Origin: Aminobacter ciceronei
Lineage (GTDB): Bacteria; Pseudomonadota; Alphaproteobacteria; Rhizobiales; Rhizobiaceae
Direction: 5' to 3'
DNA: 59,920 nucleotides
Assembly (NCBI RefSeq): GCF_014138625.1
Contig: NZ_JACJHY010000037.1
Span: forward strand, 1 to 59,920
Below the pieces are notes generated by a model that saw only the letters and a list, made by a program, of their open reading frames with translations, was not told where the DNA came from and did not search any database. The translations under genes were made by a program, and so were the position numbers. This document shows, in pieces, positions 2,931 through 58,409 of this stretch; within the stretch, counting starts at the first letter, position 1, and the number at the start of each line of letters is the position of its first letter.

Positions 2931-3556
2931 GCGCCTGCACCGGCCAGCGCGCTCGTGTTCCCAAGCCCGTAGGCAACGCGAGTGGACTGCAGTGCGCCTC
3001 CGTCGACATCGATCAGAAGAGCAACGATCCTGCCGTGAGGATGATCAAGGACCTCGCCAAGGCGGGTAACCGACCAGCCAAGCTGCTCCAGTCGTGCCGG
3101 CCAAAAGTCCTCACACACGACACTCAGCTTGCCTATCCCTAACCTCAGGCATGCTTCGAGAAGCCCGCACAATACGAGGCCAGCTGCTTGTGACGATCCA
3201 CCCGTCATTCGCAAGGATGGAACGACAAAAAATCTAGTCCACTCATAGAGATCGGCGTCTCTCGGCGGCGCACCTCTGGCAAGCATTGGGAAAACATCCG
3301 AAAGCAAATGCGGTTTCGTCGTCGGCACCAGACGAGACCCAGCGACTATGTTTCCACTGCCGGCAATTCCAAGCAGATAGATCGCGTCCCTGGTATCGAA
3401 CGCGTCGATCTCCAATGGAACCGGCCTGTCGATTTCCTGCCAGTTTCGGCCAATGACGTAGATTTCATATCGAATGCGAAAATAGCGTTCGAGATGATCT
3501 TGATACGTCTGACGGTTTGACCAATCGACGATATGCAGTTTGAACGGGGTACGCAC
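2927..3556 (-). CDS. LuxI-family acyl-homoserine-lactone synthase
   Basis: LuxI-type enzymes make N-acyl-homoserine-lactone signals from S-adenosylmethionine and an acyl carrier protein or acyl-CoA. The 209-residue product shows the family signature in order: R-Y-E-I-Y near residue 29, an aromatic N-W, E-I-D-A-F-D with the conserved acidic pair, A-G-S-R-L-V-P-T-T with the conserved Arg, an F-P-M-L segment, and E-W-T-R-F-F-V. The start is GTG at 3556; no in-frame ATG lies before the conserved core and no strong ribosome-binding site is visible. It sits between a LuxR-type regulator and a GNAT gene, all in one direction, so it is probably auto-induced. Acyl-chain preference cannot be read from the sequence. 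Confidence 0.9.
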   Translation of the reverse strand: MRTPFKLHIVDWSNRQTYQDHLERYFRIRYEIYVIGRNWQEIDRPVPLEIDAFDTRDAIYLLGIAGSGNIVAGSRLVPTTKPHLLSDVFPMLARGAPPRDADLYEWTRFFVVPSLRMTGGSSQAAGLVLCGLLEACLRLGIGKLSVVCEDFWPARLEQLGWSVTRLGEVLDHPHGRIVALLIDVDGGALQSTRVAYGLGNTSALAGAGA

Positions 3557-3612
3557 ATGACGACGCGTAGCCTAGGCTGGCAAGGCCCGACTATTCCGGT
3601 TTTCTGGTATTG

Positions 3613-4341
3613 TCAGGGATAGATTTCCCCTCGCCGCACGGCTTCCATTGCCGCCTGGATCGTATTCACCGCGTCGCACTTATCTCTGACGTTGCTCAGA
3701 TGTCGCTCGACCGTGAACCGCGAAATCCCAAGAATGCAAGCTACGTCCTCAGCTGCCTTGCCGGCTGCGATCCATGTCAGAACTTCTCGCTCTCGATCGG
3801 TCAGGGTGATCTGACGTGATTGCTCAACTTGGTCACGCAGCCGGCGAAGCGCTCGGTAGGCATGCACGCACACCGTTTCAAGGATTGGAATGTCTTCGGG
3901 CAAAACCTCGATATGTTCGCCCGCAGCGGTCACGACCGAAGGAGCTCTTCGAGGCTCATGGACAGGAACACACAAGCCATTCCTCAGTCCGAATTCTGCG
4001 GCCTCGCCCATGACCCGCAGTTGTCCAGCGGTCATCTCTTTGGGCAACAGGTCATGCCAGACAAAGGGCTGGCCGACCAAGCGGCTGCGTGAGGCGCACG
4101 GATCCTGGGTGAAATGCTCGCTGGCAAGGTAATGCTTGAGCCATTCTATTGGCCAGCCGTCATAGAGGATTTCGCGCTGCCACGGCCCACGCTGCGGCGG
4201 AGGCAGGCCTGTTATGAGCAGATGACGAAAGCCGAAAGGCCGCAAGATGCTGAGCAGTTCTTTCAAAACGTCCGCTGGCGTAACTGCGGCATCAATTCTC
4301 GCGAGCGCGCCTGTAAGCATTGCGAACATACTGGGGTTCAT
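3613..4341 (-). CDS. LuxR-family autoinducer-binding regulator
   Basis: The N-terminal ~160 residues form an autoinducer-binding-type domain, including the W-P-x-x-W-L-K-H-Y motif used to hold acyl-homoserine lactones. The C-terminal ~65 residues are a LuxR-type (GerE) helix-turn-helix: L-T-D-R-E-R-E-V-L-x-W-I-A-A-G-K, then I-S-x-x-T-V-E-R-H-L-S-N-V. The frame extends to an ATG at 4383, but the ATG at 4341 is preferred because a GGAG lies upstream and domain similarity begins just after it. It precedes the luxI-type gene by 56 bases, so it is the likely cognate receptor. It resembles TraR-type regulators of rhizobial elements, though whether it controls the ICE genes at 55 kb is unknown. Confidence 0.88.
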   Translation of the reverse strand: MNPSMFAMLTGALARIDAAVTPADVLKELLSILRPFGFRHLLITGLPPPQRGPWQREILYDGWPIEWLKHYLASEHFTQDPCASRSRLVGQPFVWHDLLPKEMTAGQLRVMGEAAEFGLRNGLCVPVHEPRRAPSVVTAAGEHIEVLPEDIPILETVCVHAYRALRRLRDQVEQSRQITLTDREREVLTWIAAGKAAEDVACILGISRFTVERHLSNVRDKCDAVNTIQAAMEAVRRGEIYP

Positions 4342-4509
4342 CACCCGCGCTCCAAAACCGCCGACTATGCGACCAGCCCGCATCGATGATGGCAGGGCCG
4401 GTCAGCCTAGTCAGGCGGATTCGGCGTTTCGCATGCAGATTGCTAACTGTAGTTTTCATTTGTCAGCGCTTTGAAAGCATTTCGCCTAAATGCCCGCCTG
4501 AGGACCGCG

Positions 4510-43219: not shown

Positions 43220-46200
43220 CTAAAGTAAGCTCTTCAGCCGATCCTGAATGGCCAAGGCCGCCGACAATTGTTTCGACACCGCCAAGCCAACGAGGTCAAT
43301 CAGCGCCTGCCTAGTTTCGGGCTGTGCAACAGTGGTCGGCCCGTTTTCGGTGATCACAGTGGTCAAGAATTCGACAAACGCTGCGGAGGTTCGGTCGCGA
43401 TACAAAGGCCGATCCGCAACAGGGCCCTGGCCGGCGAGCCGTGCGAGCGCGGAAGCGCCCTGAATGGAGTTGGCGATCCACACGAGCCCCTCCAGACGGA
43501 GCGACTGACCTGCTTTCGTAGACAAAAATCCGCAAAGCCCAGCGAGGTTGTCTTCATCGTTTGGCAACCGCTTAAGGGCCCACGCGCGATATAGATCGCG
43601 CATCGGTTCGATCAACCTTGATGAAGTCGAAGGCCGAGCTAGCGCGTCCGACCGTGCAAAGCCTAACGCGTGCCTTTCCAGACTTTGCTGGTGATACCAT
43701 GGCCCGCCTTCCCACCCTCGCCCTACCATGATGGCCTCGATCATGGGTCGCCAGCGCGCAGCGAAAAGTGCCTGATCGGTGTCCTCCTCGAGGTGGCTGA
43801 AGAAGCACGTGAAGAAGTGAGCGATGGCGTAGTGCCCCTTGGGGCCAATATCGAAAATCGGTTGCCACAGCAAGGATGACTCGGCAGCGTCGGTCACCAG
43901 GACCATGCCCGCCATGGCTTCCAGCAATTTGTAACCGAACTGGCTCATCGGGGCGTAGTCACCGGACGTTTCGCTCTCGCTCCCGACCAGCAGCCACCCG
44001 GTGTGAGCCCAGAAGGCATTGAGCAACTGCCGCCGCTGGTTCAGCTCCGTCACCCCCGCAGACAAATTCTTGTCGATCAGCAGCCACGCAAACGCAACTT
44101 GGAGGAAATGCGTCTCCAATGCGCCAGACATCCGGCGCGATCGATCTCGGGTGAAGGTTCGGCCGTCATGGCGATATTCTTCCTCCCATTGGCGAGCCTC
44201 AAACTCCTCGATCCGCTTAGCCACATCGAGGGGACGGATGTCATCGACGGTGCATGGTACACCCGATACTCGACGCGTGAGCAACCAACGCGCACGCCGC
44301 AGCCAACGGCTCTGATCAGGTCCATCTTCCTGACCGAAGCGTGGCTTGAGGATGATCAAGCCCGACCAAAGAAGCGCCAAGTACTGAAGCCGCCACCATC
44401 TGTCGCCCAAGGCAGCACTGTGAGCGTACGCCATATCGGCAATTACGCCGGCGGCGCGGTCGTCGCCGCTCGTCAGGATGCGGAGGAGCGCACTATCGGT
44501 GTCCCGCGATGGGGCCGCGAGCCATTCGTGAAAGACTAGATAAGCGACGAACTCCAGGTAGCTCGGTGTCATGGAATAGTGAAAGCGGGAACGGTCCTTA
44601 TCGAGAGCGGTTTCCTCCATCGCAGCGTGCACGATCGCTTGCGCGCGATCATGCACACTTTCGTTCGAGGCCAGCCATTCCTTGGCACCCAAGAGAAGCA
44701 CGACCGCCGCCGTGACGCGCGCAGGCCGAAGCATCTCCTCCTCAAGCCCCACATCCTCGTCGCCATCTGCCGCCCCCATTAGGTCGGCGATGGCCGTGAT
44801 CTGATCGACCGGCAACGGCGCAGGCGCGGCAAGAAACCGCCGGCAATTCTCGGGGAAAGCAAGTATCTGCCGCGCCCGACCCCTGCTCTGCTCAAATCCG
44901 GAAATTACAGCAGCAAGCTCGGCAGGCCATACGAATTCCGCCTGGTGTTCCTCCCCCGCGCCAACGGCTCGGTAATTGCGGTAGTCGAGTTCCGCGACCC
45001 TGATCTGAAATTCCATCCGCTCCTTGTCGCCATCTGGCGGCGTCCACTGGGCTGCGGCAGCGTTGACGAAGTCGCCGAGCGCATGGTCCTTGCGGCACAG
45101 CTCACTGACGATGGCTGTGAGCTTCCTATGACGGTAAGGCGCAGCGTACCAGTCGCGCGCCATTTCGAAGACCATCTCGCCGCTTCGGACCCATGTCATG
45201 GCGTCGAAGCTATACTCGCTGTCCCGGATGCGTCTTTCGTCCCACTCGTAGAATGGCGCGACCGTGAGCAATGGCTTTAGCACGGCGCTAAAAAGCTCCG
45301 GCAACCGCTTGCCGACATTGATAATTACGCCGAGTATGGCGACGCTATCCGCATGCCGCATCAACGTATTGATGTGGCTGCTGACATCGGCCCCCTGGTC
45401 AACAAGGCCACACAGCCATTTCTCCAACGCCGCAAGCGATGAATAAAGCTGCCCGTTGGAATGATCGCTTGTCTGCGACCACGCGAAGGCGTTGTAGCGC
45501 CCTCGAAACTGCCGCTCGGTGCCGTCGTTCAAGCGTACTGGTATCGGCGCGGGCGAGCGGCCCCCATGACTCGTAACGTCATGTTCCCAACGGTCCATGC
45601 AAAAGGAGAGAAGCCGCAGAAGTGTATCGATTGCCGTGGCCGGGTCGACATGCAGAAATGAGAAAAACGGACTCTTCCAGTAGGCCGTGGGGTAGCCTTC
45701 GTTGTCATAGGCAAGCCCCAATTCCTCGCGGTAGCGCCCGCGCGAGCCGTAGCTCTCTTCCGGGGAGTCTTCGATCAAGACAGCCATCAGCACTTCGGCT
45801 GCCTCCGCAGGCCGAGCGCGCATGAGGCTTTGAAACGTTCGCGACCGAACCGCCTTTTCAAACGCCCTGTCCACTCGACCTTGAGGACCTAGCGGCCAAG
45901 GTGGCAGCTTCCTCCCCGACGACATCACGGAAATGCTCCGCTTCCGGCCGTGACGCTCGCGGTACTCGGCATCGCTCTCCATTCGGCGGCTGTGCTCGGC
46001 AGCCTTTTCCCTATGATGCTGGTTCAACTGCGCCTGAAGGTCGGCACGCATCGGACGACGGTGCGCCATCTCCAGCGCCCAGGTTGCCACGTCATCGGGG
46101 AGATCTTGCGCACCGGCGAAGGCCGCCTCGAAGAGGCTGTCGTCGTCGCCGAGGTACATGACTCCTTTCGCGACATCGAGTTGACGGGCGCGCGCGGTGG

Positions 46201-48541
46201 CAAGCGCCAACTCCGCAAACTCCTGCCGATAGGGAACCAGCGTTCCGTCCGATAATGTGAGCGGCATGCTGGTGAGCCAGCGCTCGCAAAGAATAGAAAC
46301 GCGCGGAAGGACAAGGTCTGCTACGCGCTGGTGATGATGGCCGAGAAACACTGCGAGGGCGGGCCATCTCCCGACAATCGGCGTGCGGAATTTCGCCTCA
46401 AGATATACGCCATAGTCCTTCAGCGGCCCCGCGTTAACAAGTGAAACGCCGGACACGCTTCCGACATGCTCGAACCTCGCCAGCAAGCGCTGGAGATGCT
46501 TCGCGTTGTTTGCGAAGAGCATATCGGCGCGCGCTTCCAAGAAGGTGATCGCCTCAGGGTCGAGGAACAGCGCATCAAGCAAGATATCATCAGCGAGCGG
46601 AAGGGTACCTTGCGCCGCCTGCACTTGATCAAAGGCGTCGTCCCATGCCGTTCGCGAGCCTGACGGCTGGCGCAAAAGTAACTGGCCCAGCATGCGCAGC
46701 GCGCCATTCCAAAGCGGATTTTCCGCGTAAGCCGCCCACTGCGCCGTGTCGGAAGCGATCTCTTTCAGCCTCTGGAAGCGCGCCCAGTCAGCCGCGAGAT
46801 CATGCTCAAATTGCACGTGATTGTTGGCGGGATTTCGCCTAACCGGGCACTGCGGCGGCCGGCCGTCGAACGCAGTCGCGTCCGCCGCTTCGAGGGTGCT
46901 GACAGGAACGCTATGCTCGAAGGCCGCATCGCGCAGGGCCAGCCGTATCAAGAATCCTTCGAGTGCCGTACGACCTAACGTCCAGTGCGCCCAAAGCTTC
47001 TCGGCAATAGCCACCATAGACGTGGGGGCCGCACCGCTGTCATCCTGAAACACCCCTGCCGCTTGAACGACCCATGCGAGCGTTCTCAGGTTTGTCAGGG
47101 CCATGAGGGCGTCGTGGTGAGATGCAAGCCACTCAAGCCCGGTGCTGGCACGCAGTACGGCCGCGACATCGCCTGCGGATCGGGCCCGAACCTCCCATCG
47201 CGCCAAGGACGGAGTGCCTGCAATCTTCGACAGCTCGCCGCTTGCCCAAAACTCGGTTTGCCCAATGAGGATCACGCGCCACGCAAGCGGAGGTTCTGAG
47301 CCAGTCACTTCGAGCAGTTGTTTGACCAACTGTTGGGCCTTGAGCCGTGACGCAGGCGAAAGGCGTTCCGCTGAATCGATGATAAGAAAATTCTCAGCCG
47401 TTACGGCAGCGTCGAGGACGCTGATAAGGGGATGGGCGAGTCCGAAGCGCGCGCGCTCTGCTTCGTTCAGAGCTAGCTCAAGATGTTCCGGTGCAAGCCA
47501 TACCCGCGTTGCACTAGGAAAGTGCGTATCGAGGAAAGCCTTTACCAATGCGGACTTACCGGTCCCCGACTCTCCATAGACCGCAACGCACGGCTTTTCT
47601 CCGAGCTGCGTCAGAAGCAGGTCGCATTCGGACCTGAAGTCGAGGCGTGCCCCTGAAGGTAAAGCCGTTTGGACGAGGCTCTCTGTCTCCGCGCTCAGCG
47701 CCCGAAGGCGAGCCCAGCTCGGCTCGTAGTCCGGAAAATCCCGTAGCGCGAAGCGGGGCCGCAGCCACCGCCTCAAAGCCGCCATATCCAGCGTGCCGCT
47801 TCCCAAGCGCGTTTCTTTCGCGCGGCCGACGATCTCACCCCAAAGGTCGGTGGCGTCCTGCGCAGTACCACCCGCCAGAAGCGAGCGCGCAACGGCGATG
47901 GCGTCGGCTTCGTCCTTCGAAGGCAACCGCTGGAAATCGAACGGCAAAACATCAAGGCAGCCGATGAGGCCAAGAACGTCGGCGTTCGTGACGGCCGTTG
48001 CCGCCGCCTTTAGACTGTCGAAAATTCTCTTGTAGCGTGGATTGGCCTCGATCTGCGCCAAAGCCAGGGCCGCATCGGCACCAGCCGCAAACTTCTTGAT
48101 GTCGCTCCATGCACTCTGGAAATCGTCGTGCGTCCCTTGGGTGGCAAGCGCCAGGCGGTCCGTCGACCTATCGAACGGGCTGTCCGTCTTGGTCCAGAGT
48201 CGCCAAGCCAGGTCAGCAAACGATGCCGGCAGGCCATTTGCCGAAACCTGCACATTGCCCTTGCACGAGACGGCTAGTCGCCGCGCCACCGCCTTGTCCT
48301 GCGCAACTACGAGCAGGTCATCGATATCCCATTGCAGCGTGCCAGTCTGCATCTGGAGACTCTGTACATCGCCCTCGACCGGGAGGCTGCGCCCAGCAAG
48401 CGACGACAATACAAAGTGCGCGGCTACGCGATCCTCGAAGTCAAAACCCGTTCCGCCGGTCGACCGTCTGGTAGGGGACACTTCTTTTTTCTTGGCCGTT
48501 CGTTTCTCTGCCGAGGATTTCGCCTTCTGCCTTGCTGTCAC
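43220..48541 (-). CDS. Giant STAND-type NTPase with nuclease-like N terminus (Avs-like)
   Basis: The 1773-residue protein opens with a Lys-rich tail, then a nuclease-like domain (about residues 30-200). The pattern is G-F-D-F-E-D-R-V-A (Glu36), W-D-I-D-D (Asp72-Asp75) and L-A-V-S-C-K-G (Lys94), the PD-(D/E)xK layout seen in Cap4/DUF4297-type DNA endonucleases. A P-loop NTPase follows, with Walker A G-E-S-G-T-G-K-S (323-330) and Walker B F-L-I-I-D-S-A-E-R (Asp389). The remaining ~1300 residues are helical and repeat-like without a known family. This effector-STAND-sensor order and size match Avs antiphage proteins, in which the long C terminus recognises a viral protein. GTG start; single gene. 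Confidence 0.72.
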   Translation of the reverse strand: MTARQKAKSSAEKRTAKKKEVSPTRRSTGGTGFDFEDRVAAHFVLSSLAGRSLPVEGDVQSLQMQTGTLQWDIDDLLVVAQDKAVARRLAVSCKGNVQVSANGLPASFADLAWRLWTKTDSPFDRSTDRLALATQGTHDDFQSAWSDIKKFAAGADAALALAQIEANPRYKRIFDSLKAAATAVTNADVLGLIGCLDVLPFDFQRLPSKDEADAIAVARSLLAGGTAQDATDLWGEIVGRAKETRLGSGTLDMAALRRWLRPRFALRDFPDYEPSWARLRALSAETESLVQTALPSGARLDFRSECDLLLTQLGEKPCVAVYGESGTGKSALVKAFLDTHFPSATRVWLAPEHLELALNEAERARFGLAHPLISVLDAAVTAENFLIIDSAERLSPASRLKAQQLVKQLLEVTGSEPPLAWRVILIGQTEFWASGELSKIAGTPSLARWEVRARSAGDVAAVLRASTGLEWLASHHDALMALTNLRTLAWVVQAAGVFQDDSGAAPTSMVAIAEKLWAHWTLGRTALEGFLIRLALRDAAFEHSVPVSTLEAADATAFDGRPPQCPVRRNPANNHVQFEHDLAADWARFQRLKEIASDTAQWAAYAENPLWNGALRMLGQLLLRQPSGSRTAWDDAFDQVQAAQGTLPLADDILLDALFLDPEAITFLEARADMLFANNAKHLQRLLARFEHVGSVSGVSLVNAGPLKDYGVYLEAKFRTPIVGRWPALAVFLGHHHQRVADLVLPRVSILCERWLTSMPLTLSDGTLVPYRQEFAELALATARARQLDVAKGVMYLGDDDSLFEAAFAGAQDLPDDVATWALEMAHRRPMRADLQAQLNQHHREKAAEHSRRMESDAEYRERHGRKRSISVMSSGRKLPPWPLGPQGRVDRAFEKAVRSRTFQSLMRARPAEAAEVLMAVLIEDSPEESYGSRGRYREELGLAYDNEGYPTAYWKSPFFSFLHVDPATAIDTLLRLLSFCMDRWEHDVTSHGGRSPAPIPVRLNDGTERQFRGRYNAFAWSQTSDHSNGQLYSSLAALEKWLCGLVDQGADVSSHINTLMRHADSVAILGVIINVGKRLPELFSAVLKPLLTVAPFYEWDERRIRDSEYSFDAMTWVRSGEMVFEMARDWYAAPYRHRKLTAIVSELCRKDHALGDFVNAAAAQWTPPDGDKERMEFQIRVAELDYRNYRAVGAGEEHQAEFVWPAELAAVISGFEQSRGRARQILAFPENCRRFLAAPAPLPVDQITAIADLMGAADGDEDVGLEEEMLRPARVTAAVVLLLGAKEWLASNESVHDRAQAIVHAAMEETALDKDRSRFHYSMTPSYLEFVAYLVFHEWLAAPSRDTDSALLRILTSGDDRAAGVIADMAYAHSAALGDRWWRLQYLALLWSGLIILKPRFGQEDGPDQSRWLRRARWLLTRRVSGVPCTVDDIRPLDVAKRIEEFEARQWEEEYRHDGRTFTRDRSRRMSGALETHFLQVAFAWLLIDKNLSAGVTELNQRRQLLNAFWAHTGWLLVGSESETSGDYAPMSQFGYKLLEAMAGMVLVTDAAESSLLWQPIFDIGPKGHYAIAHFFTCFFSHLEEDTDQALFAARWRPMIEAIMVGRGWEGGPWYHQQSLERHALGFARSDALARPSTSSRLIEPMRDLYRAWALKRLPNDEDNLAGLCGFLSTKAGQSLRLEGLVWIANSIQGASALARLAGQGPVADRPLYRDRTSAAFVEFLTTVITENGPTTVAQPETRQALIDLVGLAVSKQLSAALAIQDRLKSLL

Positions 48542-49968: not shown

Positions 49969-50075
49969 TTCTCTGAGGCCGAGTCGGTGTCGAACCGGCT
50001 ACTCAGAGCGGCTGACCGTGATGCGCGAACATCTTGGTCAGCCTGACCAAACCCAAGCTGGTTGGAGCTCGGATC

Positions 50076-50726
50076 ATGGCTGATTCCGACAATACCACAG
50101 CTTTGCCTTTCGTCACCCAAGGGGGACGAAGGAAGAGCTGTGCTGTGGATGACGACGCGGAAGGTGACATCTCGGTTGGCGTAAGACCGGCCGAGAAGAT
50201 CGCCGCGCGTTTGCTTGCGCCCGTCGACCCATGCGTGGTCCTGCTGCAGGAGTGGGAGCAGGCACATCACATGGCCGTGGTTTTGTGCCGGCTGCAGCAG
50301 CGTCTGGAGATAAGGATCAGGAATGCCCTGAGGGCTTCTGAACCGAGCGGTGGAGCTGAGAACGACCAGCAGAGCGCACCGCAGCCAGCAGATCAGCAGA
50401 CACGTTGGGACGAGCTCGACCAGAAGGTTGGATACTCACGAGCCCGTGCCGCCGAGGCACAGGCCATCGAGGCTGAAGAAGAGATCCTCGATGCTATTGC
50501 CACCACTCGCGCTCAATCACTCGCCGGGGTGATCGCCAAGCTGAAGATCATTGCTGCCGGTGGCGAGGCCATGGGCGACACATCGGCATTCCCCTGGCCG
50601 CAAATTCAGTCGGTCCTGGCGGACCTCCAGGCATTGGGCGAAAGCGGCCTGAACGCTGGAACCAATAGCCGCCCAACCGCATCGGACAGCAACACAGCAT
50701 CCGAAAACTATCTCAGGCGTAGCTGA
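50076..50726 (+). CDS. Hypothetical helical protein
   Basis: The 216-residue product (ATG at 50076) has a polar N terminus, then mostly helical sequence, including V-L-L-Q-E-W-E-Q-A-H-H-M-A-V-V-L, a long acidic/Ala-rich coiled-coil-like helix (S-R-A-R-A-A-E-A-Q-A-I-E-A-E-E-E-I-L) and Q-S-L-A-G-V-I-A-K-L-K-I-I-A-A-G-G-E. Small helical proteins ending in A-G-V-x-A-K-L-x are frequent as unannotated genes in Mesorhizobium genomes. No domain or catalytic motif is recognised and there is no signal peptide. It lies divergent from the XRE gene and 108 bases upstream of the transporter operon, with no clear link to either. Confidence 0.6.
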   Translation: MADSDNTTALPFVTQGGRRKSCAVDDDAEGDISVGVRPAEKIAARLLAPVDPCVVLLQEWEQAHHMAVVLCRLQQRLEIRIRNALRASEPSGGAENDQQSAPQPADQQTRWDELDQKVGYSRARAAEAQAIEAEEEILDAIATTRAQSLAGVIAKLKIIAAGGEAMGDTSAFPWPQIQSVLADLQALGESGLNAGTNSRPTASDSNTASENYLRRS

Positions 50727-50834
50727 ACTAGGGCCTTTGCCGGATCGCGGGAGGCGAGACTGCGCGGTCCCGCACGTCCAGACATCCGTCCATCGGCCGC
50801 GGAGCCAACCTTTTACAACAATGGGAGAGAGAGA

Positions 50835-51722
50835 ATGACCTTCAGAAGTTCTGTACGCCTGCGGCTTGCAGTCATGTGGTGCGTTTTGCTCGCGCTGATC
50901 GTTGCCTTGCCAGGTGGTCCGGCCTTTGCCGAGACGGCCAAGGAGCGCATCCTGCGCGAAGGCAAGATCGTCATCGGCATTCACAACCGGACGCCATGGG
51001 GCTTTCGTGACGAAGCCACCGGCGAGGCCAAGGGATGGCATCCGGACCTGTTGCGGGCTGCCTTTGCCGAACTTGGCGTCAAGGAGATCGACATCAGGGT
51101 CACCGAGTTCGGGGCGCTCATCCCGGGGCTGCTGGCCGGCCGCTTCGATGCGGTGGCCTCTGGTCTGTCCATCACGCCGGAGCGCTGCCGGCAGGTTGCC
51201 TTCGGAACACCCGATCTCAAGGTCCATGACGCGGCAATCGTGCTCACTGGTAATCCAAAACAGATCCATGGCTTTGAGGATATCGTCAGCCAGAAGATCA
51301 TCATGGGTGCCGGCCGCGGCAGCGTGTCGGTCAGGAATGCGACTGTCGCCGGCGTGCCGGAAGGTAACATGCTGCTGTTTCCCGACATCGAGGCAAACAT
51401 CTCGGCCCTGCGCTCTGGCCGCATCGATGTGACGGTACTGTCATCGCCGACCGTGATCGGGCTGCTTGCCAGCGGCAAGCTGAAGGGACTGGAAAGTGCC
51501 GACCCCTTCGTGACGACAGACGAACAGGCAACTTATGCGGCTGTCGCCTTCCGCAGCGAAGACGGGGATTTGCGGGCACTGTGGGATGAACGGCTTCTGG
51601 CGCTGACCAAGGACGGCACGGTTGGCAAGGTCATGGCCAGATATGGCTTTGGCGAGACCGAGGTCGTGCCTGATACCGTCACCGTCGAGAAGCTCTGTGG
51701 CACGGCTGGTGCCGACAAATGA
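50835..51722 (+). CDS. EhuB-like family 3 solute-binding protein (D)
   Basis: The 295-residue protein has a signal peptide (V-M-W-C-V-L-L-A-L-I-V-A-L, ending F-A-E) and the family-3 layout: I-H-N-R-T-P-W-G-F-R-D-E-A-T-G-E-A-K-G and L-S-I-T-P-E-R-C-R-Q-V-A-F-G. It starts at ATG 50835 behind GGGAGAGAGA. It begins an operon of one binder, two permeases, an ATPase and a deacylase; its stop overlaps the first permease start by four bases. The ligand is probably an amino-acid derivative, perhaps an N-acyl or ectoine-like compound, judging from the terminal enzyme. Confidence 0.9.
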   Translation: MTFRSSVRLRLAVMWCVLLALIVALPGGPAFAETAKERILREGKIVIGIHNRTPWGFRDEATGEAKGWHPDLLRAAFAELGVKEIDIRVTEFGALIPGLLAGRFDAVASGLSITPERCRQVAFGTPDLKVHDAAIVLTGNPKQIHGFEDIVSQKIIMGAGRGSVSVRNATVAGVPEGNMLLFPDIEANISALRSGRIDVTVLSSPTVIGLLASGKLKGLESADPFVTTDEQATYAAVAFRSEDGDLRALWDERLLALTKDGTVGKVMARYGFGETEVVPDTVTVEKLCGTAGADK

Positions 51723-52378
51723 GCATGCTCGAGATCTGGCTCGGCATCCTGCAGGGCTTTCGCGTCACCGCTTTGGTGACGCTCTATGGCCTTGTCTTTG
51801 CCATCCCCTTCGGCCTCATCTTTGGCGTTGCCCAATACCTGACCACAGGCCCGGCGCGGTTCGTGGTGACGTCGGTCATCGAGTTCTGGCGCAGCTCCGC
51901 CGTCATCATCCTGCTGTTCGTGTTCTATTACGCCCTGCCCCTGGCCGGACTGGCGCTGTCGGCAATGACCGTCAGCGCCATGGTGCTTGGGCTCAACATT
52001 GGCGGCTATGCCAGCCAGGCCGTGAGAGCCGGCCTGCAGGCACTCGATCGTGGCCAGAAGGAAGCTGGCCACGCGCTTGGGCTGTCGCGTGCCACCATCC
52101 TGTTGCGCATCGAACTGCCGCAAGCACTCGTCGCCATGAGCCCGACCTTCATCAACCAGCTGATCCAGCTGGTGAAGGCGACATCGCTTGTCTCGCTGGT
52201 GACGCTGACCGACATGACCTTCCGCGCCAAGGAGATCTCCCAGATCGAATATGACCCGGTGCCGATCTACAGCTCGCTGCTGCTCGCCTATTTCATCGTC
52301 TGCTATCCGGTCGCACTGTTCGGCCGCTGGGTGGAACGACGCATCAACCCGGCAAGGGAGGCGCGTCGTGCAGTTTGA
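51719..52378 (+). CDS. Polar amino acid ABC permease (EhuC-like)
   Basis: A 219-residue HisMQ-type permease with about five membrane helices and the coupling loop K-E-A-G-H-A-L-G-L-S-R-A-T-I-L-L-R-I-E-L-P-Q-A. It begins ATGAGCATG, overlapping the binder's stop codon, and its own end overlaps the next gene by 11 bases. It forms the channel with the 52368 permease. The C-terminal tail is Arg-rich, as is usual on the cytoplasmic side. Confidence 0.92.
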   Translation: MSMLEIWLGILQGFRVTALVTLYGLVFAIPFGLIFGVAQYLTTGPARFVVTSVIEFWRSSAVIILLFVFYYALPLAGLALSAMTVSAMVLGLNIGGYASQAVRAGLQALDRGQKEAGHALGLSRATILLRIELPQALVAMSPTFINQLIQLVKATSLVSLVTLTDMTFRAKEISQIEYDPVPIYSSLLLAYFIVCYPVALFGRWVERRINPAREARRAV

Positions 52379-53027
52379 TGTGGCCTTTGCGCTGTCGACG
52401 GTGCCGACCATCCTTGGCGCCATCGGCATGACCTTGCTGGTGGCAGCAGTCAGCTGCGTTGGCGCCTCGGCAATAGGCTTCGGCCTCGAACTCATCCGCC
52501 GCTCCGGTGGGCTGGGCGGGCTGTTCGTCCGCTTCCTGATCGACTTCATCAGGGCAACGCCAGTGCTGGTCTGGCTCTACTGCCTGTATTTCATCCTGCC
52601 CTTTTACGGCATTCGCCTTGGCGCGCTTGCCACAGGCATGATCGGGCTCAGCCTCTATTACAGCGGTTATCTCGCCGAGGTGTTCAAGGCCGGCATCGAT
52701 GCCATCCCCAACGGTCAGGCGGAAGCCGCAAGGGCGCTTGGGATCGGTAGGATGGATATCACCATCTTTGTCATCGCGCCGCAGATGCTGCGCAACATCG
52801 CTGCACCCATGGGCAACTACTTCGTCTCGATCCTCAAGGCGACGCCCTATCTGGCGGTGCTTGCAGTGCCGGAAATGCTGGGACGCGCCTTCGATATTGC
52901 CTCCGAGACCTACCGCTATGCCGAGCCGCTGACGGTTGCCGGCCTCATCTTCCTCGGTCTCGCACTCCTCATTTCGCACGCCATCAAACGGCTCGAGATC
53001 CGACTGCTTGGGCCGACCGCCAGATAA
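52368..53027 (+). CDS. Polar amino acid ABC permease (EhuD-like)
   Basis: The 219-residue permease starts with GTG at 52368 behind AAGGGAGG; the open frame further upstream is only the shadow of the previous gene. It shows G-I-D-A-I-P-N-G-Q-A-E-A-A-R-A-L-G-I-G and I-F-V-I-A-P-Q in the ATPase-contact loop, and five hydrophobic helices. It overlaps the previous permease by 11 bases and is 89 bases from the ATPase gene, the only sizeable gap in the operon. Confidence 0.92.
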   Translation: MQFDVAFALSTVPTILGAIGMTLLVAAVSCVGASAIGFGLELIRRSGGLGGLFVRFLIDFIRATPVLVWLYCLYFILPFYGIRLGALATGMIGLSLYYSGYLAEVFKAGIDAIPNGQAEAARALGIGRMDITIFVIAPQMLRNIAAPMGNYFVSILKATPYLAVLAVPEMLGRAFDIASETYRYAEPLTVAGLIFLGLALLISHAIKRLEIRLLGPTAR

Positions 53028-53116
53028 CTGACCGGCCGGTAGCCCAGCGGCTGATCGCGTCCTTACAAAACCAGACACTGAGATCGCTGCCTTCAAGCGA
53101 ACTGTAGAGAGACTCC

Positions 53117-53866
53117 ATGACCCAGACAGACGACAAACCTGCCGTCCAGATCACCTCGCTCAACAAGTGGTATGGCGCCTTCCATGTGTTGAAGGAGGTC
53201 AACCTCACCATTCCAAGCGGATCCCGCTTTGTGATCTGCGGACCGTCCGGTTCGGGAAAATCCACTCTGATCCGCTGCCTGAACGGGCTTGAAGCCTACC
53301 AGCAGGGAACGGTCACACTTGGCACGATCAGGCTGGGCGACAATGCCAGGGAGACGGCACTGGCCCGCCGGCAGACCGGCATGGTGTTCCAGAGCTTCAA
53401 CCTGTTTCCACATCTGACTGTGTTGTCGAACTGCACGCTTGCGCTGCGCCGGGTTCCTTCCATGCCGCGCAAGGAGGCCGAGAGCCTGGCGCGGCATTTT
53501 CTGGAAAAGGTCCGCATTCCCGAACAGGCCGACAAATACCCTGCACAATTGTCAGGTGGACAGCAGCAGCGGGTGGCGATTGCGCGCGCGCTCTGCATGA
53601 ACCCGCGCCTGATGCTGTTTGACGAACCGACATCGGCCCTCGATCCGGAGATGGTCAAGGAGGTGCTCGATGTCATGACGGGACTTGCTCATGACGGCAT
53701 GACGATGATCTGCGTCACCCATGAGATGGGCTTTGCCCGCGAGGTCGCCGACCAGGTGGTGTTCATGGATCAGGGCAGCATTGTCGAACAGGCGTCGCCA
53801 TCGGCCTTCTTTGCTACTCCCAATCATCCCCGTGCGCGCTCGTTCCTCAACACGCTGCTGCACTGA
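53117..53866 (+). CDS. Polar amino acid ABC transporter ATPase (EhuA-like)
   Basis: The 249-residue ATPase has Walker [11 protein letters not shown]-loop [10 protein letters not shown], signature L-S-G-G-Q-Q-Q-R-V, Walker [13 protein letters not shown] and H-loop T-H-E-M-G. It energises the import system encoded by the three genes before it. One base separates its stop codon from the deacylase start, so the transport genes and the enzyme are translated as a unit. Confidence 0.93.
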
Positions 53867-53867
53867 C

Positions 53868-54893
53868 ATGAAGATGTCGCCGGCGGGCGAGACGCGCATC
53901 TGGACAACTCTTGACTTCGACCGGGACGGGAAGCAGCACGATTGGCTGCGACTACCCTTTTCGACCGACCAGTCCGCCTATGGCGTCATCCCGATCCCGA
54001 TCACCTGCATCAGGAATGGCGAGGGGCCGACGGCACTGCTGTTTGCCGGCAATCACGGCGATGAATATGAGGGCCAGGTCGTTTTGAGCAAACTGGCTCG
54101 TCAGCTCGAACCCCGCGATGTGCGGGGCCGTATCCTCATTCTGCCTGCGCTCAATTATCCCGCCGTGGTTGCGGGGCGACGCCTCTCCCCGCTCGACGAA
54201 GGCAATCTCAACCGGCTGTTCCCTGGCGAGGCAAACGGCACCCCGACCCAGATGATCGCCCATTTTGTCAGCTCGGTACTGCTTACGATGGCCGACATCG
54301 TCATTGACCTGCATTCAGGCGGCAGATCCCTGTCGTATCTTCCCTGCTGCCTGATACGCGTTGCTAACTCGGGAGCCGAAACCGCAAGGCTCATGGAACT
54401 CATGCAGGTCTTCGGCGCTCCCATCGGATCCATCAGCGACGGCACCGGTGGCGGAGGGGCAACCACTCTTTCTGCGGTAGCCCAGGCTCTTGGCGTTCCA
54501 ACCCTCACAACCGAGCTGGGCGGGGGCGGCACCTTCTCAACCACTGGCGAGGCCATCGCCAGGCAAGGTATCTGCCGCGTCCTCAACCACATCGGCGTAT
54601 TGCCCAATGCCGAAATCAATCCGCCGACGCCAGTCCGGCTGATGCGGGTCGACGGGAGGGGCGCGTTCGCATATGCCCCCATTCACGGCATCTTTGAACC
54701 TGCTGTCGAACTCGGCGACACTGTAGAAGCTGGCCAATCCGGAGGCTTCCTTTTTCCAGTCGAAGGTCCCCCCAAGCCGCCCGAAGAAATCCGTTTCGCG
54801 CAGTCCGGCCTCGTCGCCTGCCGCCGCGCACCGGCCCTCGCCGCTCCCGGTGACTGCCTGTTCAAGCTTGTGACCGATGTCGGGGCTATATGA
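53868..54893 (+). CDS. AstE/DoeB-like N-acyl amino acid deacylase
   Basis: The 341-residue protein belongs to the succinylglutamate desuccinylase / aspartoacylase zinc hydrolase family. Zinc ligands are in G-N-H-G-D-E-Y-E-G (His, Glu) and D-L-H-S-G-G (His), with a C-terminal beta-barrel-like region (G-V-F/E-P-A-V-E-L-G-D-x-V). The size and N-terminal T-T-L-D-F-D-R-D-G-K-Q match the DoeB/EutE group, which removes the acetyl group from N-alpha-acetyl-diaminobutyrate in ectoine breakdown. With an Ehu-like transporter next to it this is attractive, but no DoeA (ectoine hydrolase) gene is here, so other N-acyl amino acids are equally possible. Confidence 0.82.
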   Translation: MKMSPAGETRIWTTLDFDRDGKQHDWLRLPFSTDQSAYGVIPIPITCIRNGEGPTALLFAGNHGDEYEGQVVLSKLARQLEPRDVRGRILILPALNYPAVVAGRRLSPLDEGNLNRLFPGEANGTPTQMIAHFVSSVLLTMADIVIDLHSGGRSLSYLPCCLIRVANSGAETARLMELMQVFGAPIGSISDGTGGGGATTLSAVAQALGVPTLTTELGGGGTFSTTGEAIARQGICRVLNHIGVLPNAEINPPTPVRLMRVDGRGAFAYAPIHGIFEPAVELGDTVEAGQSGGFLFPVEGPPKPPEEIRFAQSGLVACRRAPALAAPGDCLFKLVTDVGAI

Positions 54894-55074
54894 TTGGCAG
54901 CACATGACAAAGCATCAATGAAGACACGGTAGTCGTGGTCGGGCGCCGCCCCCATTCCACGGCCTGAGTAAGCGCTCAGCCCATCAATCGCTTCCGGTCA
55001 ATCCCGGTTTTTTGGGATTCTGTCTGCTGTTCCACTGCATTACGGGAATGGTCCGCAAATTTGCAGGAGGATGC

Positions 55075-55287
55075 ATGAAGCCGGATTCGTCTGAGTGGCG
55101 CAGCTCGCAGGCCTACGATTTCATAAGCAACGTCACTCCGGATGCCCTCGCCTGGGAATTTCTGCGCCGCAATCCAACCTACCAGCGCGAATTTGCAGAC
55201 ATGCAGCAAATCAACTCCACGCCTGATGCCATGTCCCCGAACGCGCTGCGATCGCAGTGGGGGCTTCGATTTTCCAGCAAATCCTGA
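55075..55287 (+). CDS. Msi172-like protein (DUF6499), zero-frame part of FseA
   Basis: A 70-residue product starting at ATG 55075 behind a perfect AGGAGG. It has S-E-W-R-S-S-Q-A-Y-D-F, L-A-W-E-F-L-R-R-N-P-T-Y and, near the end, Q-W-G-L-R-F, the pattern of Msi172 of ICEMlSymR7A. In that element most ribosomes end here, and a minority shift +1 into the next frame to give the excision activator FseA. The zero frame stops at 55287, four codons after the conserved W-G-L-R-F, exactly as expected for a frameshift-controlled pair. A hairpin-like AATCCC/GGGATT repeat lies ~60 bases upstream of the ATG. Confidence 0.85.
   Translation: MKPDSSEWRSSQAYDFISNVTPDALAWEFLRRNPTYQREFADMQQINSTPDAMSPNALRSQWGLRFSSKS
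55267..55276 (+). promoter_or_regulatory. +1 programmed ribosomal frameshift site
   Basis: The codons CGA-TTT-TCC encode Arg-Phe-Ser of the zero frame; TTT is at 55270-55272. Slippage of tRNA-Phe by one base re-pairs with TTT at 55271-55273 and moves the ribosome to CCA (55274-55276) in the +1 frame. In ICEMlSymR7A, +1 slippage of tRNA-Phe within the same W-G-L-R-F motif was shown experimentally. Here the run of four T makes the slip perfectly matched. Confidence 0.75.
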
Positions 55288-55849
55288 TCGCCCGGCAACC
55301 AAGCAGCCGGTTTACTGGACACCCGAGGTGGATCCGGCTGTTATCCTGCTCATCAACACGCCGCCACTGCTGGCTGACGACGCGGACGTCGTCGCCGCTT
55401 TGCCGCCAGCTGTTTCAAAACGTGACGAGTTGGGTGAGCATTTGCGTGCCGTCTCGGCGGCAAATAGCTGCCAGATTGCTCTGCTTTACGGCACCGACTG
55501 CGCGCGTCCCCTGGCTGCCATAGTACCTCTCGACGCCAAGGCCCCCGAACGACTGTCATCCCTGGAAAGATATCTTAGATCGGCCAAGGGAAGCAGCGTA
55601 CCCGACAAACGCCTGACATCATCGCAACGCGTTCGCCTCGGCCACATGCTTCGCGCGCTAGACGGCCGCATCGAAGGGGCCTCCCATTTCGACATAGCCC
55701 ACGCTTTGTTCGGTCCCCGCTTCATCTTCGCTGAGGACTGGCAGGATTCGCCATTTCGTTACACAACGCTGCGCCTCATTCGCGATGGCTACAGAATGAT
55801 TGAAGGAGGCTACCGCCAACTCCTGCGGTTCCGGCGGCGCGACGCCTGA
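55274..55849 (+). CDS. fseA: Msi171-like DUF2285 domain, +1-frame part of FseA
   Basis: This frame has no start of its own at the right place and is read by +1 frameshifting from the 55075 frame, giving a predicted 257-residue fusion (66 residues from frame 0 plus 191). It includes Y-W-T-P-E-V-D-P-A-V, P-L-D-A-K-A-P-E-R-L, L-T-S-S-Q-R-V-R-L-G-H-M-L-R-A-L-D-G and F-R-Y-T-T-L-R-L-I-R-D-G, typical of DUF2285. FseA activates the excisionase gene rdfS in ICEMlSymR7A. Here the excisionase-like gene lies 150 bases downstream. The antiactivator QseM was not recognised in this window. Confidence 0.85.
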   Translation, partial: PANPDRPATKQPVYWTPEVDPAVILLINTPPLLADDADVVAALPPAVSKRDELGEHLRAVSAANSCQIALLYGTDCARPLAAIVPLDAKAPERLSSLERYLRSAKGSSVPDKRLTSSQRVRLGHMLRALDGRIEGASHFDIAHALFGPRFIFAEDWQDSPFRYTTLRLIRDGYRMIEGGYRQLLRFRRRDA

Positions 55850-55886: not shown

Positions 55887-55915
55887 GTGCGAAATAGGCT
55901 CCATCCATTTCGCAC
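55887..55915. promoter_or_regulatory. Inverted repeat upstream of the excisionase-like gene
   Basis: Perfect 9-base arms GTGCGAAAT (55887-55895) and ATTTCGCAC (55907-55915) with an 11-base spacer, 84 bases upstream of the HTH gene and 37 bases after the fseA stop. It is placed where an activator of the excision operon would bind; a hairpin at the end of fseA is the alternative. Confidence 0.5.
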
Positions 55916-55998
55916 CTGAACAACGCCGGAGCCCTTCTCCATCATCGCCCATGTCCGCCGCTTGTCAGCGGCTTTCAAAACGTGATGGAGATGCCCCG

Positions 55999-56280
55999 AT
56001 GAACGGTCGAAACGCCGGCTTGCCGCCACGCTTTCTGCGCACCAAGGAAGCGGCTACGTTTCTGAGCCTGTCGGCCAGGACGCTCGAAAAGCACCGCACC
56101 TACGGGACAGGCCCCGACTATCGCAAGCTCGGCGGCAGGGTCGTCTATGCCATCGACGATCTCCAGGCCTGGGCCAATCGCGGAGCCATGACCTCGACAT
56201 CCGACCCACGGGGCACCGTGCTTCCGGCCAAACGCCATTCCCTTATGGCTGTAGCACATGCCGACCGCTTGGCCCGCTGA
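55999..56280 (+). CDS. Excisionase-like HTH protein (RdfS candidate)
   Basis: The 93-residue protein (ATG 55999, GGAG eight bases upstream) has the AlpA/MerR-like winged-helix pattern of recombination directionality factors: R-T-K-E-A-A-T-F-L-S-L-S-A-R-T-L-E-K-H-R, then G-P-D-Y-R-K-L-G-G-R-V-V-Y-A-I-D-D-L-Q-A-W. Such proteins bend DNA to bias the integrase towards excision. It lies directly after fseA and before repA and the transfer genes, in keeping with the RdfS role in ICEMlSymR7A, though other small HTH genes in these clusters have no proven function. No cognate integrase gene is intact in this window. Confidence 0.68.
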   Translation: MNGRNAGLPPRFLRTKEAATFLSLSARTLEKHRTYGTGPDYRKLGGRVVYAIDDLQAWANRGAMTSTSDPRGTVLPAKRHSLMAVAHADRLAR

Positions 56281-56297: not shown

Positions 56298-57185
56298 TTG
56301 TCGGCGCGAACTTGCCTACCTTCGGAGCGCGGACAGCTTGATCTGTTCCATGCGCTCCCCGGCGACTTCGCTCCTCGCGATGCACAGGACCTCATGGCCT
56401 ATCCATTGTTTTCCCTCGCAAAATCCAGACGCACGGCACCCATCGATTTTAAAGCCGGTGGCGTAACCATCCGGGTTGAAGCCGTACCGGATCACGGCAT
56501 GGCAACGATCTGGGACGCAGACATCCTCATCTGGGCCGCCAGCCAGATCGTCAACGCCCGCGATGCCGGACTGCGGACATCACGACTGATGGCTACGACG
56601 CCCTATGAGATCCTGACCTTTACCGGGCGCGGCGTCAGCTCACGCGACTATCAGCGCCTGAAAGCCGCGCTTGATCGTCTCCAGTCGACCACGATCGCGA
56701 CCTCCATCCGCCAGCCGGCCGAGGGCCGGCGCCATCGCTTCTCCTGGCTCAACGAATGGCAAGAACGGACCGACCGGGATGGACGGCCAGTCGGCATCGA
56801 ACTGATCCTGCCGGATTGGTTCTATCGCGCGGTCCTCGATGACGCGCTCGTGCTGACCATCGACCGGACATATTTCGACCTGACCGGGGGCCTCGAGCGT
56901 TGGCTTTACCGCATCGTGCGCAAGCATGGCGGACACCAGCAATACGGCTGGAGGTTCGACTTCGCCCATCTGCACCACAAGTCCGGCAGCCTCTCGCCCC
57001 TCAAGCACTTTGCATACGACCTGCGCGACATCGCCCGACGACAACCCCTGCCTGGCTACCGCCTCGGCATCGAACACCAGGTCGACGGTCCTGATGTCCT
57101 CACCTTCGTCGCCACCAATCCGGCCGCGTTCACCTCGCCGCGCCCGGCTCGGAAACCATCCTCGCGCTTCGGGGGCAAGCTGTGA
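56298..57185 (+). CDS. Replication initiator RepA (RPA family)
   Basis: The 295-residue protein matches the RPA-type replication initiators of rhizobial plasmids and ICEs: G-Q-L-D-L-F-x-A-L-P-G-D at the start, then Y-P-L-F-S-L-A-K-S-R-R, W-D-A-D-I-L-I-W-A-A-S-Q-I, P-Y-E-I-L-T-F-T-G-R-G, and L-E-R-W-L-Y-R-I-V-R-K-H-G-G. The start is TTG at 56298, which keeps the conserved N terminus; the first ATG (56394) would remove it. Iteron-like repeats lie immediately after the stop codon. It probably supports transient plasmid-like replication of the excised element. The parA gene that usually follows in such clusters is absent. Confidence 0.88.
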   Translation: MSARTCLPSERGQLDLFHALPGDFAPRDAQDLMAYPLFSLAKSRRTAPIDFKAGGVTIRVEAVPDHGMATIWDADILIWAASQIVNARDAGLRTSRLMATTPYEILTFTGRGVSSRDYQRLKAALDRLQSTTIATSIRQPAEGRRHRFSWLNEWQERTDRDGRPVGIELILPDWFYRAVLDDALVLTIDRTYFDLTGGLERWLYRIVRKHGGHQQYGWRFDFAHLHHKSGSLSPLKHFAYDLRDIARRQPLPGYRLGIEHQVDGPDVLTFVATNPAAFTSPRPARKPSSRFGGKL

Positions 57186-57191
57186 ATACGC

Positions 57192-57254
57192 TCGTGCTAT
57201 CGGGGACCACCCCTGTCGTGCCATCGGGGACCCGACCTTCGTGCTATCGGGGAC
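57192..57254 (+). repeat. Three iteron-like direct repeats after repA
   Basis: The 16-base unit TCGTGCTATCGGGGAC occurs at 57192-57207 and 57239-57254, with a one-base variant (TCGTGCCATCGGGGAC) at 57216-57231. Starts are 24 and 23 bases apart, about two helical turns, as for replication-initiator iterons. They begin 7 bases after the repA stop codon. The rest of the interval up to 57396 shows no gene. Confidence 0.75.
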
Positions 57255-57396
57255 CGGAATTGACGATTCCTCGTCGGATTCCAGTGCCTTGCGGCCACCG
57301 TAACGTCTCTAACCCAGATTCTTTCAGAATCTTTCTAACGCACCCCTGCCTTCGCCGGCATGAGGATGACTGCCCCACAACTGCGGGGAGCTCGTC

Positions 57397-57867
57397 ATGA
57401 ACGCAGCACTCCTCACCCATGTCGAACTGACCTTTGTCGAAAAGAAAATCGAGCACTGGATCCGCTTCGGTCGGGCAGCGCACGAACAACGTATCGATCG
57501 CCGCCGTCGCATCCTCTACTTCCAGCCCGGCACGATCTTCGCCTTTGTCCGCTGGGCCTCCAATGACTTCGGCACGGTGATCTCACGGATCGACATTGTG
57601 CGTGCGGTCGCCCGCGGCGAAGCCTATCAGACGCTGCCATTCGTGCGTCCAGGCGGCGACATCCTGCTCAAGATCGATAGCTGGCCCAAAGTCGAGCGCG
57701 TGCTTCAGGTGATCGATGCGATTGAACGTCTCGGCATCGATCCCGAAGCCGTATCGCCCGATCACTGGCGACACGTTCACAACCGAATGACCGCCGGCCA
57801 CGAGCCAAGGGCACACACGCTCGACCAGCATCGTGCCTTCCTTCTGCGCCAGAGGACGAAGTCATGA
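57397..57867 (+). CDS. DUF2840 family protein
   Basis: A 156-residue protein with the DUF2840 pattern: T-H-V-E-L-T-F-V-E-K-K-I-E-H-W-I-R-F-G, I-L-Y-F-Q-P-G-T-I-F-A-F-V-R-W-A-S-N-D-F-G-T near the middle, and a conserved W-P-K-V-E-R-V-L. These genes occur just before the TraF-type peptidase in alphaproteobacterial ICE and plasmid transfer clusters, as here, with an overlapping ATGA junction. Function is unknown; a link to conjugative transfer or its regulation is inferred from constant linkage. Confidence 0.88.
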   Translation: MNAALLTHVELTFVEKKIEHWIRFGRAAHEQRIDRRRRILYFQPGTIFAFVRWASNDFGTVISRIDIVRAVARGEAYQTLPFVRPGGDILLKIDSWPKVERVLQVIDAIERLGIDPEAVSPDHWRHVHNRMTAGHEPRAHTLDQHRAFLLRQRTKS

Positions 57868-58409
57868 GCCGCCTCTCCATCGTGCTTATGACTGCATTTG
57901 CTGTAACTGGCGTCGGCTATCCGGGGCTCACGCCGATGCCGATCAGGCTGATGTGGAACGCTTCGGCCAGCGCGCCGATCGGCCTTTATTGGATTAACTT
58001 CGACAGTCCTTTCGAAGTCACTGATCTTGTCGCCGTCGACGCGCCGGAGCCGCTCGCGATCTTCTTCGCCGCGCGCAACTATCTGCCGAAAGGTGTCCCG
58101 CTCGTGAAGCGCGTTCGCGCGGTCTCCGGGCAAACCGTCTGCCGTTCGAACGTTCTCATCACAGTCGACGGCATCGAGGCTGGCACCGCGCTCGAGCACG
58201 ATCGCGCGGGCCGTACACTGCCGACCTGGAGTGGATGCCTGCGCATCCCCGCTGACGAAATCTTCCTCATGAACTGGGAGGTCCGCGACAGCCTCGACGG
58301 TCGCTACTTCGGCCCGATGTCCATCGACCGCATCATCGGCCGCGCCATCCCGCTTTGGACCGAAGAGGAAGACGACGGCCACTTCGAATGGCGCGCGTCA
58401 ACGCGGTGA
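57864..58409 (+). CDS. TraF-type S26 signal peptidase
   Basis: The 181-residue protein is an S26-family peptidase of the conjugative TraF kind, which processes and cyclises pilin subunits in related systems. It has an N-terminal membrane anchor, the catalytic Ser in N-A-S-A-S-A-P-I-G-L-Y (Ser36) and the general-base Lys in V-P-L-V-K-R-V (Lys82). Its start overlaps the DUF2840 stop codon. The active site faces the periplasm. With DUF736 and the transglycosylase downstream it forms the start of the transfer operon. Confidence 0.9.
   Translation: MSRLSIVLMTAFAVTGVGYPGLTPMPIRLMWNASASAPIGLYWINFDSPFEVTDLVAVDAPEPLAIFFAARNYLPKGVPLVKRVRAVSGQTVCRSNVLITVDGIEAGTALEHDRAGRTLPTWSGCLRIPADEIFLMNWEVRDSLDGRYFGPMSIDRIIGRAIPLWTEEEDDGHFEWRASTR

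Follow-up and report, generated by a model that had tools for sequence, protein, structure and literature searches.

The fseA homologue of Aminobacter ciceronei: comparative support for tRNA-Phe slipping at a TTT-T site and a conserved codon signature before it

The whole stretch of DNA analysed here (the window; 59,920 nucleotides of Aminobacter ciceronei) carries two overlapping reading frames on its forward strand, which correspond to the two parts of an fseA gene. The first of them, the zero frame (55075–55287, +), starts with the ATG at 55075, which is preceded by a ribosome-binding site, AGGAGG (55065–55070, +), and encodes a DUF6499 domain (PF20109; E 1.7e-21, 76.8 bits versus a cut-off of 23.8). 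It ends with CAG TGG GGG CTT CGA TTT TCC AGC AAA TCC TGA, its stop codon (55285–55287) lying four codons (S S K S) past W-G-L-R-F, and its unshifted product has 70 residues. The second, the +1 frame (55274–55849, +; stop codon at 55847–55849), encodes the middle part and the DUF2285 domain of an FseA homologue (PF10074, named RovC_DNA-bd, the DNA-binding domain of RovC; E 4.9e-27, 95.1 bits versus a cut-off of 26.4). When the T at 55273 is skipped after the TTT at 55270–55272, the +1 frame continues as CCA GCA AAT CCT GAT (P-A-N-P-D) from 55274, and when the slip tetramer TTT-T (55270–55273, +) is taken as a single Phe step, one open frame of 257 residues results, with its junction at Phe66-Pro67. 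A CGA codon (55267–55269, +) stands directly 5' of the slip codon. A Shine–Dalgarno-like G-run, TGG GGG (55258–55263, +; computed anti-SD duplex −8.4 kcal/mol), precedes CGA by 3 nt and the slip codon by 6 nt, and the A-site codon at the slip site is UCC. The N-terminal DUF6499 part contains AWEFLRRN, and a residue count gives the last 107 residues of the protein a net charge of +8. An earlier note on this DNA had described the two frames, their domains, the zero-frame end, the continuation from CCA and the 257-residue product of a single +1 event; its coordinates all hold base for base, both Pfam matches exceed the curated cut-offs, and the sequence and its translation over TTTT confirm the rest.

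A perfect 9-bp inverted repeat, GTGCGAAAT-N11-ATTTCGCAC (55887–55915, no strand assigned), containing the hexamers TGCGAA-N15-TTCGCA, is located 38 nt past the fseA stop codon and is the sole match to TGCGAA-N13..18-TTCGCA within the window. We regard it as a candidate FseA box, described as a pair of inverted hexamers ahead of rdfS, separated by 15 or 16 bp (PMC10359603). The gene that follows is rdfS-like (55999–56280, +), with an HTH_17 match (PF12728, E 2.9e-7, obtained on the longer ORF 55951–56280) and a start codon, chosen by eye, 149 bases past the fseA stop codon; it is the proposed target of the activator. The region further downstream (56298–58409, +) is operon-like and shows profile matches to a RepA-like protein (PF10134), DUF2840, and an S26 signal peptidase (TraF-like, below the NCBIfam cut-off). 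No integrase was found among the 30 window stretches scanned with Pfam.

The FseA family and its +1 frameshift are already published: PMC10359603, in the parts available to us, lists 4709 homologues, about 61% of them with the +1 site and about 39% fused without a shift. Our contribution is thus not the system itself but comparative support for the slip, together with a signature in the codons before it. As in FseA of ICEMlSymR7A (msi172-msi171) and the homologues of PMC10359603, DUF6499 and DUF2285 of the window gene lie in two frames, the predicted +1 shift lies beside a WGL motif coded by UGGGGG, and inverted hexamers stand ahead of rdfS. Clearly, the window fseA is a well-preserved member of this family, with the less common slip site UUU-U in place of the UUU-C of the majority. 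However, it lies directly upstream of the rdfS-like gene, in contrast to the R7A operon traI2-msi172-msi171 (PMC5882170, in part), and no QseM-like match lies alongside it. RovC (PDB 6xz5) was matched by a profile of seven read-through proteins with an E-value of 1.9e-15; the match has stretches before and after the slip, consistent with a single protein made from both frames. RovC, in contrast, is a single chain in its solved structure, and the name of the Pfam domain refers to the control of type VI secretion and not to element excision. A homologous pair, RihF1a/RihF1b, promotes transfer of an Azorhizobium ICE (PMC9601964, in part). For rihF1a/b of Azorhizobium caulinodans the authors report, in the same parts of that paper, that frameshifting is absent and that each gene has its own start and stop; the family pattern makes this statement worth checking against the sequence.

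Because deletion of one T from the slip site would turn the locus into an ordinary fused gene, we had to exclude a homopolymer error. A second copy of the locus, on contig C7 of the same genome, matches the window over 901 bases at 90% identity, and a third, in Aminobacter anthyllidis LMG 26462, shows 91% protein identity over 192 residues. Both carry TGGGGGCTTCGATTTTCCAGC, with four T as in the window. Since the slip site is shared by the 90% identical C7 copy and by A. anthyllidis, the T run is, as these copies indicate, no sequencing error. Moreover, the differences between the window and the C7 copy at codon positions 1/2/3 number 6/1/12 in the N part, read in the zero frame, and 15/6/36 in the C part, read in the +1 frame, and this bias indicates that both parts are translated in the claimed frames. 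The reading that an extra homopolymer T, as a mutation or an error, broke a formerly fused gene would account for the plain open frame that is restored on removing one T, and fused relatives without a shift do exist (34/185 hits, see below). Nevertheless, the identical four T in the other two copies, the codon-position bias retained in both parts, and the shift at the same codon in 140 of 141 split homologues speak against it, and the shared site makes such a pseudogene or error reading of the window fseA very unlikely, to the point that we give it hardly any weight.

To place the site among its homologues, PF20109 was searched in four overlapping genome sets, all of which include the genome of the window; 45 of 151 (family), 39 of 199 (order), 17 of 289 (class) and 43 of 398 (phylum) genomes were positive. 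Seventeen PF20109 matches, most of them weak, were left out of the locus set (2 from the family, 6 from the order and 9 from the phylum search). The 194 loci gave 185 distinct DUF6499 hits: DUF2285 lay in the +1 frame in 142 and in the −1 frame in 2, 34 were fused in a single frame (two of these from one gene, L105), and 7 had no partner. Because one gene (L140) contributed two of the 142 hits, 143 distinct split pairs remained; the sample was shaped by the search and is not intended as an estimate of the share of split genes. Cleaning with a W...F pattern kept 141 split homologues, two pairs without such a motif (L167 and L147) being dropped. The pattern demanded F or C after W, so that the amino acid was partly selected, but the codon and the base next to it were not.

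The codon at the shift was TTT in 140 of these 141 homologues and TGT in one. The base that follows TTT was C in 125 of the 140 and T in 15, and never A or G; at the level of 96 clusters at 70% identity, 87 representatives had TTTC, 8 TTTT and 1 TGTC. The +1 frame was open through to the DUF2285 domain in 139 of the 141, being broken further on in L044 and L092. Elsewhere in the same genes only 283 of 999 Phe codons were TTT, versus 140/140 at the slip, and the control Phe in AWEFLRRN was TTT in 15 of 46 cases. No codon of the shifted product includes the fourth base, and the zero frame places it in a tail whose length varies from 1 to 236 codons (median 17), so that the protein does not require a pyrimidine here. 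That it is always a pyrimidine strongly supports the re-pairing of tRNA-Phe from UUU to UUY, as far as can be judged from the homologues. As this base contributes to no codon of the product and yet is a purine in 0/140 homologues, both the skipped base and the slipping tRNA can be identified; natural variation alone confirms them in a widespread bacterial +1 frameshift. Together with the two domains and the presence of the same site in three close copies, TTT-Y at 140/141 sites supports the UUU-U slip reading of the earlier note: fseA of the window is very probably frameshift-encoded, with tRNA-Phe slipping at TTT-T to give the 257-residue activator.

The same comparison bears on the form of the tetramer. 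The earlier note had asked about conservation of UUU-U itself; what is kept is TTT-Y (140/141), whereas UUU-U accounts for only 15 of 140 sites and UUU-C for the majority. On a quick tree, in which 50 of 170 inner branches are open, U and C replaced each other at the fourth base at least 10 times. UUU-U therefore appears in these sequences as a minority form of repeated origin and not as a new type of slip. Relatives fused without a shift, which the earlier note had named as a ground for refutation, do exist, yet the five tree rows nearest to the window gene are all split. A match was also present in 167 plasmid records, and the four examined (M. japonicum pMLb, with a homologue at 50.8% identity, M. 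loti pML2037, S. medicae pMl1, and Bradyrhizobium CCBAU 53351) all have UUU-C. For annotators, TGG GGN NNN NNN TTT Y between DUF6499 and DUF2285 may serve as a signature of such genes.

Several homologues deviate from the common site. Three of the 143 split pairs lack it, namely the two without the W...F motif and L062 (G184:C1:1503061-1503249), in which TGG AGG TTG CGG TGT C replaces TTT-C while both domains and the +1 frame are intact; this is either a decayed site or another mechanism. In L171 and L172 (G314) and L082 (G481), an extra codon lies between W and Phe and TTT-C is kept, which offers a natural test of spacing. The fused relative L185 (G928) reads TGG GGG CTG CGG TTC GGC GCC GAC CCT in a single frame, and its lineage may have lost the frameshift.

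The two frames could also be decoded as two separate proteins, with the DUF2285 part started on its own by an internal start or by re-initiation, to act either as an inhibitor of the QseM type or, with the DUF6499 part, as a split activator. Two of the plasmid relatives named above are annotated with two genes in RefSeq, to which extent the expectation of the earlier note that a conventional annotation would call two proteins was borne out, and in the window the +1 frame is already open ahead of the slip (ATG at 55142) and contains a GTG at 55328. However, a +1-frame ATG, GTG or TTG between −15 and +20 codons is present in only 53 of the 96 representatives, or in 18 if ATG alone is counted, and no start position is common to more than 8 of them. 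An internal start for the DUF2285 part was thus rejected, as no start codon is conserved among the 96 representatives. Since separate translation would also leave the fixed slip tetramer unexplained, we consider it highly improbable.

Out-of-frame decoding is an alternative in which tRNA-Phe, with CGA in the P site, would bypass the first U and enter directly at UUY in the +1 frame. The resulting peptide would be identical to that produced by slipping, so that mass spectrometry should be blind to the difference, and CGA is indeed strongly conserved before the site. In this case, however, the first U would be free to vary, whereas all 141 cleaned sites have T there (140 TTT and the TGT of L062). 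We therefore regard out-of-frame decoding as unlikely and retain the slipping of tRNA-Phe.

The codons before the slip proved to be conserved as well. Arg preceding Phe was encoded by CGA in 78 of 89 cases, while in the rest of these genes CGA made up 380 of 3963 Arg codons; similarly, Gly before the slip was GGG in 95 of 136 (262 of 2113 elsewhere), and Leu was TTG in 73 of 119 (434 of 3922 elsewhere). The conserved AWEFLRRN motif, found in 121 of the 141 genes, was used as a matched control, and here CGA occurred at 5/121 and 10/121, and TTG at 15/121; GGG at a control C-terminal Gly was found in 5/107. Among 13 fused relatives whose W-G motif was located by pattern, 7 have Arg at the corresponding place, in no case encoded by CGA. 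GGG and CGA tended to co-occur (41/66 versus 8/29 representatives, p 0.003, with relatedness controlled by clustering alone). Thus, the synonymous choices before the slip (GGG, UUG, and above all CGA) seem, from these codon counts, to be conserved beyond the need of the protein. The window itself has GGG, CTT and CGA, without the favoured TTG. The Discussion of PMC10359603 describes UGGGGG as ribosome-binding-site-like, and neither it nor the other parts of that paper available to us mention CGA before the slip, which we do not claim to be unpublished. This conservation, CGA foremost, opens an easy direct test of E-site or P-site stimulation.

The site invites comparison with prfB, the release factor 2 gene, in which, as in the window, a G-rich SD-like run precedes a P-site tRNA that re-pairs one base forward on four pyrimidines (PMC12421855, in part). 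There, a Leu tRNA slips instead of tRNA-Phe, and the G-run lies 3 nt upstream of CTTT (same source, in part). The order in prfB is AGGGGG, 3 nt, CTTT, and then UGA, whereas in the window it is GGGGG, 6 nt, TTTT, and UCC, so that the window differs from the prfB-type arrangement. The A site of prfB holds UGA, but that of the window holds the sense codon UCC, and sense codons, mostly CCC (53) and CGC (52), occupy this place among the 141 homologues, indicating that no release-factor sensor is involved. The spacing between the W-G codons and the slip codon is constant in 138 of the 141 sites, the other three having one codon more; at this constant spacing, the G-run lies 3 nt ahead of the CGA position and 6 nt ahead of TTT. 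The conservation of the pre-slip codons, combined with a G-run at the prfB spacing from CGA and not from the slip codon, is perhaps new.

Other possible stimulators were also considered. Pairing of the G-run with the anti-SD averaged −7.94 kcal/mol, versus −5.59 kcal/mol predicted from synonymous choice (n = 94), and the mean probability of an equally strong synonymous site was 0.24; taken alone, the anti-SD strength is modest evidence. The G-run was the strongest anti-SD stretch of its gene in only 32 of 96 representatives, and this idea was rejected. Downstream RNA structure, tested in 60 nt from 4 nt past the slip codon in the 96 representatives, was no better than in shuffles (mean z −0.20; 2 below −2). 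Compensation for U as the fourth base was likewise rejected, both for CGA (2/8 UUU-U versus 47/87 UUU-C representatives, p 0.15) and for GGG (5/8 versus 61/87, p 0.70).

A joint reading of these observations, which we put forward tentatively as possible but rather doubtful, is a compound signal shifted upstream by one codon relative to release factor 2, combined with a decoy role of the unshifted DUF6499 protein. The G-run, as far from CGA (3 nt) as it is from CUU in prfB, would exert its strain with CGA in the P site, on a weak pair between CGA and its Arg tRNA, and the shift would occur as tRNA-Phe is translocated onto UUY. Weak E-site pairing was reported to increase +1 shifting at the prfB site (PMC6321510, in part). 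An abundant unshifted DUF6499 protein would, in turn, soak up the antiactivator. If true, one mRNA would set both the dose of the activator and its threshold.

The unshifted product holds the entire DUF6499 part, and in R7A this part binds QseM in two-hybrid tests (PMC10359603, in part), which suggests that the product may act as a QseM decoy. The only short DUF2285 (QseM-like) match found in the genome is on contig C20, and none was found near the window fseA. On C20, the stretch 87261-88379 (L010, G000:C20:80000-95000) holds this ORF and a third, divergent fseA of the UUU-C type, with the site TGGGGCGCGCGATTTCTC. The short DUF2285-only ORF (87261-87479), directly upstream of that fseA, is acidic, with 95 residues from the WWAV motif and a net charge of −8; FseA C parts have a median net charge of +8 over their last 100 residues. 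An rdfS-like gene (L003) follows the C20 fseA, and the order QseM-like ORF, fseA, rdfS-like gene is also annotated in Bradyrhizobium sp. CCBAU 53351.

An rdfS-like gene lay downstream of fseA on the same strand in 101 of the 141 loci, the distance from the fseA stop codon to the matched rdfS domain being 100–314 nt in 96 loci and about 790 nt in five. A position directly before an rdfS-like gene is the usual neighbourhood of fseA in this sample, unlike in the R7A operon. Inverted hexamers at a spacing of 15 or 16, within 75 nt past fseA, matched at 6/6 positions in 14 of 70 cluster representatives, versus 2.3% in base shuffles; weaker repeats (at least 5/6) were found in 52 of 70 representatives versus 37% in shuffles, and are thus common by chance. 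The C7 copy keeps the repeat at 5/6 only, and no 6-of-6 hexamer pair was found in the A. anthyllidis copy (L012). The inner hexamer of the window lies 85–90 nt before the ATG of the rdfS-like gene, compared with 62–67 in the published logo, this being a comparison of positions and not of letters. R7A-type quorum control was not found upstream of the window fseA, where the genes are an ectoine-like uptake set, and a crude test for a tra-box revealed no inverted repeat of at least 7 in 54880–55080.

The best explanation of the locus, by analogy with the known system, is that it represents fseA of a conjugative or integrative element. We infer that the shift would occur at a low rate, most ribosomes stopping at the 70-residue DUF6499 protein. 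In a minority of them, tRNA-Phe on UUU (55270–55272) would re-pair forward on UUU (55271–55273), and the 257-residue activator would be finished. By analogy with FseA of R7A, this protein may bind the candidate box at 55887–55915 and switch on the rdfS-like gene, upon which excision and transfer would begin. The site had earlier been taken as strong evidence for post-transcriptional gating of excision; the rdfS-like gene and the FseA-box-like repeat that follow fseA agree with such gating, but the strength of that statement derives from R7A.

Other features of the window may be mentioned. At 2930–4383 (−), near its left end, a LuxR-type regulator (PF03472/PF00196) and an autoinducer synthase (PF00765) are encoded. 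We make no claim for this TraR/TraI-like pair as the quorum system of the element, as its matches are below the NCBIfam cut-offs; its TraR-like protein scores best with the PA1136 and SdiA models. An ORF of 1773 residues at 43220–48541 (−) shows a partial PADLOC match to Avs4 (E 5.4e-9, residues 928–1123) and is possibly a defence gene near the element. The ectoine-like uptake genes, together with a DoeB/EutE-like deacetylase, occupy 50039–54893. Homology to C7 and to one A. anthyllidis contig starts at 50039 in both cases, and another A. anthyllidis copy covers about 50006–54871, ending before fseA.
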